Shown: one piece after another, positions 26,512-28,803 of the stretch | Position numbering within the stretch: the first letter of the stretch is position 1 | Layout of the letters: every line of letters starts with the position of its first letter | Source: Magnetospirillum moscoviense | GTDB lineage: Bacteria; Pseudomonadota; Alphaproteobacteria; Rhodospirillales; Magnetospirillaceae | Reading direction: 5' to 3' | Length of the DNA stretch: 64,000 bases | Assembly (NCBI RefSeq): GCF_001650635.1 | Contig: NZ_LWQU01000207.1 | Span: 1-64,000, forward strand | Position numbers and translations under genes: made by a program | The notes under the pieces: model-generated | Databases searched by the model: none | Seen by the model: the letters and a program-made list of their open reading frames with translations, nothing else | Told to the model about the DNA's origin: nothing

Positions 26512-26690
26512 CATGACAAAAATCCCAAGGAAAAGTGCGGCGGTCGTTGCGGGGGAGATAGCGTCTCGGGCACAGGAAAGCAACTCAATCTTGAGCGCTG
26601 GCCTCGGGTAAAACAATTCTATTGATTTCACAGGGCGCGAGACTCAGTATCTCGGGGTTGATTCCACCCTGGACCCACGAGATATCGGTT

Positions 26691-27380
26691 ATGGACGCCC
26701 AGAAGCTTGCCAAGGTGCTGGCGCTGGCCGCCTCGGACAACGATTCCGAGGCGCTGCACGCGTTGCGGACGGCCAAGCGCCTGCTGGAAAGCCAGGGGGC
26801 CGATTTCGTCGAACTGGCGCGCCGCGTCGCCGATCCCAAGGGCGGCACCGCCGAGGCGCTGGAAGACGCGGTGTTCGACTTGCGCAACGAGGTGCGCCGC
26901 CTGCGGGCCGAGAACGAGCGCCTGCGCCAGATCGGCCCCGGCACAGCGCAGCCCGAATCCAAGGCCGAGCCGCAAGGCTTCCAGGACGCCGCGCGCGAGG
27001 CCGCCGCCGGCATCCGCCTCAGGGCCGAACTGGCCCGGATGACGGAAGAGCTTGAAGTCGCCCGCACCGAGATGCTGCGCCTGAAATCCCACGAGGCGAC
27101 CATGCACGACCAGTTCCGCGAGGCGCTGGCCGAGGCCGGCAAGTTGGGCGTGCGCCTGTCCGAGGCGGAAAGCCGGCGCATGCGCCTCGAGGCCGAGAAC
27201 CGTCGCTTGTCGCACGCCAACCATGCCCTGAAGGTCGAGCTGGACGAGTTGCTGGCCCAGCGCCACCATGCCGCCGCCCAACTGGTCGCCCACGAAGTCC
27301 GCCAGGAGCTGGAAGGCAAGAAGCCGCGCAAGACCCGCTCGAAGCTGAAGGATTCCGCCGGCCAGTACGCCCTGTTGTAG
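26691..27380 (+). CDS. DUF2786-like coiled-coil protein
   Basis: 229 residues. The first 45 (LAKVLALAASDNDSEALHAL) resemble the DUF2786 helical repeat. The rest is a long coiled coil with heptads (LRNEVRRLRAENERLRQ, ELEVARTEMLRL, AENRRLSHANHALKVELDEL), ending in a Lys/Arg-rich tail. No membrane span. The stop codon TAG is formed exactly at the border of the MITE-like element; the sequence beyond the element would give the same stop, so the protein was not shortened by the insertion. Function unknown. Confidence 0.75.
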   Translation: MDAQKLAKVLALAASDNDSEALHALRTAKRLLESQGADFVELARRVADPKGGTAEALEDAVFDLRNEVRRLRAENERLRQIGPGTAQPESKAEPQGFQDAAREAAAGIRLRAELARMTEELEVARTEMLRLKSHEATMHDQFREALAEAGKLGVRLSEAESRRMRLEAENRRLSHANHALKVELDELLAQRHHAAAQLVAHEVRQELEGKKPRKTRSKLKDSAGQYALL

Positions 27381-27643
27381 GGTCCAAACTCAGTTAGGGC
27401 ATGGAGTGCGCCGTGACGAATTTGCTTTCCTGGCAGGAAGAGCGCGCTGCGCGATGCGGCGCATCGCGCAAGCGGTCTGACGCCCCGGGAGAGCAAATTC
27501 GTCCGGCCCGGAGGGTTGGGTTTCCAAGGGCGCCCTGGTTCGTTGTCGCCGCTCGGCGATGCGCCGCATCGCCATCGCGTCGCCGCCTGCCATTGCGCCC
27601 TTGGAAACCCAACGCACTCCATGCCCTAATTGAGTTTGGACCC
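27380..27643. mobile_element. MITE-like multi-hairpin element, 264 bp, TA-flanked
   Basis: Terminal inverted repeats of 31 bp (27380-27410 and 27613-27643) begin GGGTCCAAACTCA and differ at one position. TA lies directly outside both ends (27378-27379 and 27644-27645). Inside are two further perfect inverted repeats: 12 bp (27415-27426 with 27492-27503, GACGAATTTGCT) and 19 bp (27515-27533 with 27595-27613, GTTGGGTTTCCAAGGGCGC). Each hairpin tip holds a smaller palindrome around GCGATGCGGCGCATCGC. There is no transposase gene. TA target and small size fit an IS630/Tc1-mariner-type non-autonomous element, as for Correia elements. Confidence 0.8.
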
Positions 27644-27651
27644 TAGGGATC

Positions 27652-28803
27652 ATGGAATCCCGACCCAGCCTGTGGATGCGTCTGGCCGCCGCCTGCCGGA
27701 CCGAGCTTGGCCATCTGACCATGATCCACCCCACCGACCGGCCGTGGGAATTGCCGGTCGGCGCCGCCATCGCCATCGGCCTGCCCTTGTTCATCGGCGC
27801 CTTCTTCGACCGGCTGGATTTCGGTCTGGCCTCGTCGCTGGGCGGATTGTGCTTCATGTATCTGCCGGCGACGGCCTTGTCGCATCGGATGGTGATGCAG
27901 ATGGCCTGCGCCTTCGGCCTGATCGCCTGCTACGCCCTGGGGGTGATGAGCCAGTTCGTGCCATTGATGGCGGTGCCGGTGCTGACCTTCTCAGCCATCC
28001 TGGTCACCATGGTCTGCCGGTTCTACGGGGTCGGCATGCCCGGCAGCCTGTTCTTCGTGATGGTCGCGGCCATCGGCGCCGATCTGCCGGTCACCGTGCT
28101 GGAGGTGCCGGCCCGTGTCGGCCTGGTGGCCATGGGGGCGGTGCTGGCCTGCCTGATCGGCTTTCTTTACAGCATCCACGTCCTGCGCCGCCGGGCGCCG
28201 CAACAGCCGCCGCCGCCGACCGCCTCGTTCGATTTCGTGGTGTTCGATTCGGTGGTGATCGGACTGTGCGTCGGGTTGTCGACGGCCGTGGCCAAGGGAC
28301 TGGGCGCCGAGCAGGCCTATTGGGTGCCGGTCAGCTGCCTGGCGGTGATCCAGGGCGCATCGTTGCGGGCGGTGTGGACCAAGAAGCTGCAGCGCATCCT
28401 GGGGACCTTGGCCGGCCTGCTGCTGACCTGGGGCCTGTTCCTGCTGCCGCTGGGGCCGTGGACCATCGCGCTGACCATGACCGTCCTGATCTTGGTCATC
28501 GAGACCATGGTGGTCCGCCATTACGGCCTTGCCGTCATGTTCATCACGCCGCTGACCATCCTGCTGGCCGAGGCCACCACCATGGGGCAAGGCCCGGCGG
28601 CGGATTTGATGCAGGCGCGGCTGTTCGACACCGTGCTGGGCTCGTTCGTCGGATTGCTGGGCGGCATCGCCCTGCACAGCCCGCGCTTTCGCGGGGCCGC
28701 AGGCGGTGCGATGCGGCGTTTGATCCCGGCCCGCTTTCGCGGCGGATCAGCGCCTGAGCCAGCGACGGATGCGGGCGCGGACCTCGCGGCCCGAGGGGAA
28801 TAG
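27652..28803 (+). CDS. FUSC-family inner-membrane transporter
   Basis: 383 residues with two blocks of about five membrane helices separated by a short cytoplasmic Pro-rich stretch (RRRAPQQPPPP). The second block has the FUSC signature AYWVPVSCLAVIQGASLRAVWTKKLQRILGT (residues about 223-253). Members such as AaeB export aromatic acids; the substrate here is unknown. The ATG lies 8 bases beyond the mobile element, so its promoter must lie within or before that element. The last 57 bases overlap the antiporter gene on the other strand. Confidence 0.82.
   Translation: MESRPSLWMRLAAACRTELGHLTMIHPTDRPWELPVGAAIAIGLPLFIGAFFDRLDFGLASSLGGLCFMYLPATALSHRMVMQMACAFGLIACYALGVMSQFVPLMAVPVLTFSAILVTMVCRFYGVGMPGSLFFVMVAAIGADLPVTVLEVPARVGLVAMGAVLACLIGFLYSIHVLRRRAPQQPPPPTASFDFVVFDSVVIGLCVGLSTAVAKGLGAEQAYWVPVSCLAVIQGASLRAVWTKKLQRILGTLAGLLLTWGLFLLPLGPWTIALTMTVLILVIETMVVRHYGLAVMFITPLTILLAEATTMGQGPAADLMQARLFDTVLGSFVGLLGGIALHSPRFRGAAGGAMRRLIPARFRGGSAPEPATDAGADLAARGE

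Follow-up and report, generated by a model that had tools for sequence, protein, structure and literature searches.

Results

A folded, TA-flanked repeat upstream of a FUSC gene

The stretch of DNA analyzed here (the window) comprises 64,000 nucleotides of the Magnetospirillum moscoviense contig NZ_LWQU01000207.1. At 27378 to 27645 it carries a 268-base, TA-flanked repeat, a real feature that lies far beyond chance; the 264 bp given in a first-pass annotation of this DNA is that length minus both TA. Upstream lies an ORF (26622 to 27380, + strand) without a match in Pfam or NCBIfam, whose TAG stop codon is formed by the first three bases of the element. Downstream lies a FUSC_2-domain gene (27652 to 28803, + strand), whose ATG at 27652 is separated from the element by six bases; the element had been correctly placed between a stop and a start codon, but with the second distance given as eight bases. 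Two ORFs overlapping the element had no Pfam match. A consensus search of 27150 to 27800 found no terminator and no promoter, sigma-70-like promoters being the type looked for, and the earlier suggestion that the FUSC gene relies on a promoter within or across the element gained no support from it.

The terminal arms (27378 to 27410, + strand, and 27613 to 27645, − strand) are 33 nt long rather than 31 bp, are 97% complementary with the single mismatch already recorded, and have TA at each outer edge. Inside them lie two inverted repeats, one with 19-nt arms at 27415 to 27433 and 27485 to 27503 (89%) and the other with 24-nt arms at 27515 to 27538 and 27590 to 27613 (92%). These contain, respectively, the perfect runs of 12 and 19 nt described in the first-pass annotation, and the similar palindromic hairpin tips, GCGATGCGGCGCATCGC and GCGATGCGCCGCATCGC, were likewise confirmed. 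Absent from that reading are the kinship of the two hairpins, which are versions of a single unit of about 97 nt in opposite orientations, and the wide recurrence of this layout. Unit 1 (27412 to 27506, + strand) is made up of a stem, the loop AGGA/GACG, an inner stem, and the tip GCGATGCGGCGCATCGC; unit 2 (27517 to 27611, − strand), its inverted relative, has a stem, the loop AGGC/AACG, an inner stem, and a tip, and the two are 75 to 77% identical to each other. They are separated by a spacer (27507 to 27516) with a small hairpin, CCCGGAGGG.

Folding of the element as DNA gave −115.5 kcal/mol (z −15), and folding of its two strands as RNA gave z scores of −18.3 and −16.0; in each case, none of 200 shuffles was as low. 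At the gathering score, the units of the window and of 12 other loci match no Rfam 15 family: the three matches within 27200 to 27800 reached 14.8 to 20.4 bits, all under their thresholds of 37 to 62, and no family exceeded its threshold at any unit of the other loci.

Copies in the same and related genomes

The window element has the terminal inverted repeats, short length, and absence of genes that mark a MITE. It occurs once in its own genome (207 contigs), and its ends are found at no other place in these contigs, where no end-sharing partner was seen, which counts against mobilization. Across 55 Magnetospirillaceae genomes (its own included), 14 gave matches, so the second copies that the first-pass annotation had proposed to look for do exist. 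Seven full copies with 85 to 86% identity are dispersed in Magnetospirillum sp. UT-4 (G029, Alphaproteobacteria), and full-length copies with 76 to 79% identity are present in G025, G026, and G028. Among the weak matches from other genera, those in G004, G007, G008, and G013 gave clover folds with different stems and ends, those in G040 and G047 gave a larger related fold, and the short ones in G009, G011, and G036 were read by eye as probable chance matches. Truncated copies of the element also persist. Four G025 contigs (C72, C203, C256, and C380) show a clover-type end at base 122 from the contig start, and the shared position is a sign of several copies broken by assembly.

UT-4 also contains a second type of MITE (L026, 1484 to 1924; contig 9, 78366 to 78806) with the same IS5-like ends and a different two-hairpin core (GCGATGACATTAGGTCGG...). 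One clover copy is nested in the end of this second element; without it, a single TA remains, and the interrupted repeat matches its counterpart at the opposite end in 22 of 23 positions. Together with the copies in further genomes, this nested insertion upholds the first-pass view of a mobile, MITE-like element with nested hairpins. An empty site with a single TA, as the same annotation proposed to look for, was not found for the window's own copy: in the four relatives with a FUSC gene, the upstream protein was not within about 1.5 kb of it. In Variovorax paradoxus 2u118, a clover is 89.9% identical to the one at L195 over 90% of it, and strain SPNA7 (NZ_CP138514.1; L369, 501 to 553) has at the same site a 53-bp remnant consisting of the ends with the core missing. 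No clean empty site was found in the Variovorax comparison or at the window site.

The 97-nt unit in other taxa

An alignment of 20 units showed at least one pair-keeping change on both sides for 27 of 33 pairs. The covariance model built from these units (R1) found 24 of the 55 family genomes at an E value of ≤1e-3 and, at ≤1e-4, at least 132 of 317 genomes of the order, from 61 of 115 genera. A control model (R2), built from the reversed letters of these 20 units and applied to the order as a counterpart to R1, found 0 of 317, although its prefilter gave fewer candidates (3035 versus 8431 in genome G000; 13 per genome were scored). Generic GC-rich hairpins are rejected as the sole cause of the R1 matches on the strength of these two counts.

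A model from 86 diverse units (R3) extended the search at an E value of ≤1e-5 to at least 55 of 385 genomes of the class and at least 42 of 398 of the phylum, 27 of the latter outside Alphaproteobacteria; the counts for order, class, and phylum are lower bounds, since only 10 to 13 candidates per genome were scored. Within the window element, R3 scored unit 1 at 91.9 bits (E = 2e-23) and unit 2 at 83 bits (E = 6.1e-21), its training set including one unit of this copy. Among 20 loci from outside the class, 19 of them inspected by eye, all had at least one unit and 8 had a facing +/− pair (E ≤ 0.01).

An exact pattern scan of genome contigs returned 101 stretches. Of the 80 matches listed, 56 were titled Lachnospiraceae, Clostridia, Roseburia, or unclassified bacterium, and the other 24 belonged to Acidobacteriota/Acidobacteria, Hydrogenimonas, Magnetospirillum, other Alphaproteobacteria, and two uncultured bacteria; since many of these records are metagenome assemblies, single taxon assignments may be wrong. 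When R3 was applied to 35 of the listed matches, it recovered all 35 at an E value of ≤1e-3. The unit extends to other Alphaproteobacteria and to further Pseudomonadota, and it occurs in records of Lachnospiraceae (Bacillota), Acidobacteriota, and Hydrogenimonas (Campylobacterota). Each Lachnospiraceae copy inspected has one unit, mostly within ends such as TAGTACTCCATCC. No match was found for the window element in plasmids and phages, for the L093 and Lachnospiraceae elements in plasmids, or for the exact pattern in viral contigs.

The layout of the whole element recurs as well. Two units lie 5 to 30 nt apart in 76 distinct cases, with the model placing a + unit before a − unit in 75; the exception, L198, has two − matches. 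The spacer is often CCCTTCGGG or CCCGAAGGG, and its mini-hairpin has at least 3 pairs in 67 of 76 cases compared with 58% in shuffles, which by pairing alone is weakly above chance. In the 66 elements with both ends placed, a set that leaves out contig-cut loci, partial copies, unclear or other ends (e.g., L019, L055, L105, L133, L134, L147, L153, L154, and L160), and L164 onward, the length is 263 to 281 bp in 61, with a median of 270. The terminal repeats vary from genus to genus.

Two loop letters mostly change together in a covarying fold

Stem sequences vary across the 86 units yet remain paired: 86.9% of cells are paired, compared with 55.7% when shuffled and 38 to 42% when slid, and the covariation score is 0.747, compared with 0.198 and 0.136 to 0.189, respectively. 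The letters that are kept sit in the loops, namely AGG on the 5′ side and ACG on the 3′ side, with C or A following AGG and A or G preceding ACG. This loop pair is C.A in 47 of the 86 units, A.G in 34, and another combination in 5.

A further search that fixed AGG and ACG and left the two neighboring letters free yielded 114 units less than 80% alike, in loci originally found by models or patterns containing these loop letters, with C.A in 62, A.G in 48, and others in 4. Where units at least 65% alike differ in the loop pair, the difference extends to both letters in 127 of 146 comparisons. When loci obtained with a pattern in which C and A were specified are set aside, the pair is C.A in 51, A.G in 46, and another in 4 of 101 units, and both letters differ in 99 of 118 comparisons. 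These comparisons are not independent, however; with single linkage at 70%, both loop states occur in 4 of 58 clusters, which amounts to about four observed instances of the switch.

Ends shared with IS5 elements in two genomes and sites that are mostly YTAR

In G025, an 852-bp element contains ORFs with matches to transpos_IS5_3 (NCBIfam) and to PF13340 and PF01609 (Pfam). One of its ends, TAGGGTCCGTACTCAATTA, has the same sequence as the terminal 19 bp of the UT-4 clovers, and the opposite end has 3 mismatches over 19 positions. Against the first of these IS ends, the IS5-type-like left end of the window element has 3 mismatches in the outer 19 bp, and the right end has 2. In G047, an element with a PF13340-type transposase has the end TAGGCCGTAAACTCATAAA, with one mismatch to the clover end over 19 positions. 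The comparison was limited to placeable IS5 ends, since in most other IS5 loci it was not possible to place both, and in five further genomes (G013, G264, G269, G274, and G292) the placeable ends do not match clover ends, which counts against an IS5 reading. Among 40 loci with IS5 domains (of which L107 and L116 overlap), 39 contain no unit at an E value of ≤1. At L338, with an IS5 orfA match at 535 to 750 and clover units at 819 to 1016, an IS5 end adjoins a clover cut at CTAG; the junction was read on one side and suggests that the IS was inserted into this clover.

The first base is T at 103 of 132 ends, and in 95 of these 103 the TA is preceded by C or T, which gives YTAR. A single longest open frame of at least 100 codons enters the element at 76 of the 132 ends (5 have ties and 51 have none). 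In 44 of these 76 open frames, which are not called genes, the stop is supplied by the terminal triplet of the element (TAG where intact), while the other two frames account for 12 and 20. As most copies start with TAG, insertion at the TA of a stop codon preserves the stop of the gene.

Discussion

The repeat in the window looks like one copy of a little-noticed clover-leaf family present in several bacterial groups. We consider it probable that the element is a non-autonomous, IS5-mobilized transposon with a conserved folded core. Computation supports this with copies in many genomes, covariation in the stems, covariation of two loop letters, and ends matching those of IS5 elements in two genomes, whereas mobilization itself is inferred from the sequences.

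In the mechanism we propose, a non-autonomous transposon of about 270 bp would have its ends used in trans by IS5-family transposases, which would insert it at YTAR with TA on each side. Between the ends sit the two units of about 97 nt; as these are inverted relative to each other, both strands start with a unit in the same orientation. This unit would be kept as a folded strand, with a long stem, the loop AGG[C/A]/[A/G]ACG, a short stem, a second loop, and a palindromic tip, while the stem sequence turns over and pairing is retained. Such a core may promote movement or spread of the element, its likeliest form being a hairpin of single-stranded DNA that is recognized via its unpaired bases. 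There are precedents for such recognition. Integron attC sites have stems that are free to vary and are recognized as a folded strand by unpaired bases, and the hairpins of REP/IS200 systems are likewise recognized in single-stranded form through unpaired bases. The clover unit shares the variable stems of attC, and recognition of a folded strand would, by this analogy, be a further likeness.

We lean toward a core that acts as a folded DNA strand, for which RNA is the main rival. The unit could instead be a structured RNA active on transcription, through transcript stability, anti-polarity, or the binding of RNA polymerase or ribosomes, with the transposon ends as its vehicle. The mismatches speak partly for this: G.T outnumbers A.C by 113 to 34 in 135 units and by 134 to 29 in 35 single-unit Lachnospiraceae/Clostridia copies, which are related to each other, and one position in the tip has G.U as its most frequent standard pair. 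The concerted change of the two loop letters would also suit an RNA. By region, however, the G.T excess in the 86 units lies near the loop (68 versus 9) and in the tip (32 versus 16) and is missing from the outer stem (9 versus 15). Nor do the neighboring genes show a preferred orientation: at 24 Lachnospiraceae/Clostridia sites that have two ORFs nearby, neighbors reading in a common direction run with the unit in 8 cases and against it in 11, the remaining 5 being opposed, and 4 further sites lie within an ORF. Considering also that no Rfam family reaches its threshold, we find an RNA function rather unlikely, and a sense RNA acting on neighboring genes is less likely than a role as folded DNA.

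A further alternative is that clovers are ordinary MITEs with a functionless core, whose stems are kept perfect by template switching during replication as one arm is copied onto the other. The lack of wobble bias among outer-stem mismatches agrees with this, as does the persistence of truncated copies and of the 53-bp ends-only remnant. Arm-to-arm copying could keep Watson-Crick stems, however, but would not produce the C.A/A.G pairing, and we therefore read this interchange as evidence that a folded strand is under selection. The conservation across phyla of loop letters that are not complementary, the narrow length range of 61 of 66 elements, and the empty reversed control also weigh against copying, which we regard as improbable. 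Least credible of all is the kinship with IS630 hinted at in the first-pass annotation, that is, a MITE of the IS630/Tc1-mariner type. The TA flanks would fit, as IS630 elements likewise use TA, but the sites are YTAR rather than any TA, and both elements with matching ends carry the IS5-type domain PF13340, the one in G025 being IS5 by NCBIfam. On the evidence of these IS5-domain elements, the kind that the comparison covered, an IS630 origin is disfavored.

The usual view of MITEs is that each arises by deletion from a single insertion sequence within a single species and does not last long. In the gene-free clovers, length, layout, and loop letters persist from one order or phylum to another, whereas ends and stems have been exchanged. 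If this picture is true, a folded nucleic acid has a selected function, so far unrecognized, in how mobile DNA spreads. Somewhat against the odds, in our estimate, the folded core could be an old gene-free parasite that has spread through several phyla by swapping ends to fit the IS5-type transposase of each host, its non-Watson-Crick loop being recognized by a widely shared protein. The covariance model could be used to annotate many unexplained intergenic repeats.

Searches of an open-access library returned no title or abstract that describes the clover family; subscription papers and preprints lay outside this scope, and thus members from single species may well be in print. REPINs are not known to carry IS-type terminal repeats. 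REPINs, or REP doublets with RAYT, have two inverted palindromic units that are dispersed, as in clovers, and a supplementary legend names a "clover" alternative fold (PMC3116915). Set against that description, clovers differ in their IS-type terminal repeats (33-bp IS5-like ends in the window element), their YTAR sites, and their units of about 97 nt with two internal loops (PMC3116915). With prokaryotic MITEs, as outlined in the accessible part of a review, they share general traits, being short, non-autonomous, intergenic, and strongly folded, with terminal inverted repeats and direct repeats (PMC10969869). That part of the review holds no case in which, as in clovers, a core fold and its loop letters are conserved across phyla while the terminal repeats change (PMC10969869). 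Coxiella QMITE1 and QMITE2 are described as palindromic MITEs of about 400 and 190 bp, and QMITE2 has matches of 83 to 100 nt in Alphaproteobacteria, with repeats of 7 to 9 bp, a conserved stem, and a divergent tip (PMC5896051). As far as this description goes, the lengths, the QMITE2 repeats, and the pattern of stem and tip set the clovers apart (PMC5896051), though the two groups may still be related. Of the IS5-family elements (NCBIfam transpos_IS5_3), the one in G025 shares 19 of 19 terminal bp with the UT-4 copies and one in G047 shares 18 of 19 with the clover end there, but, unlike clovers, these elements carry transposase ORFs, and 1 of 40 IS loci contains a unit.

Several loci depart from the common layout. 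At L019 (G028, contig 9), the clover core is that of the window's genus, but the ends around it, CTGTCCCCATAAATTCCA, are quite different, as if ends had been exchanged inside one genus. Clover ends that lack a TAG or TAA start (e.g., ATACCA...) occur at L105, L134, L153, L154, and L228 and are possibly used by another group of transposases. At L009, L011, L069, L070, and L092, the partner unit is divergent, with a CAAGTC.CG motif replacing AGGC and a different tip (e.g., GGCAAGGCTGGCTGCCTTGCC).
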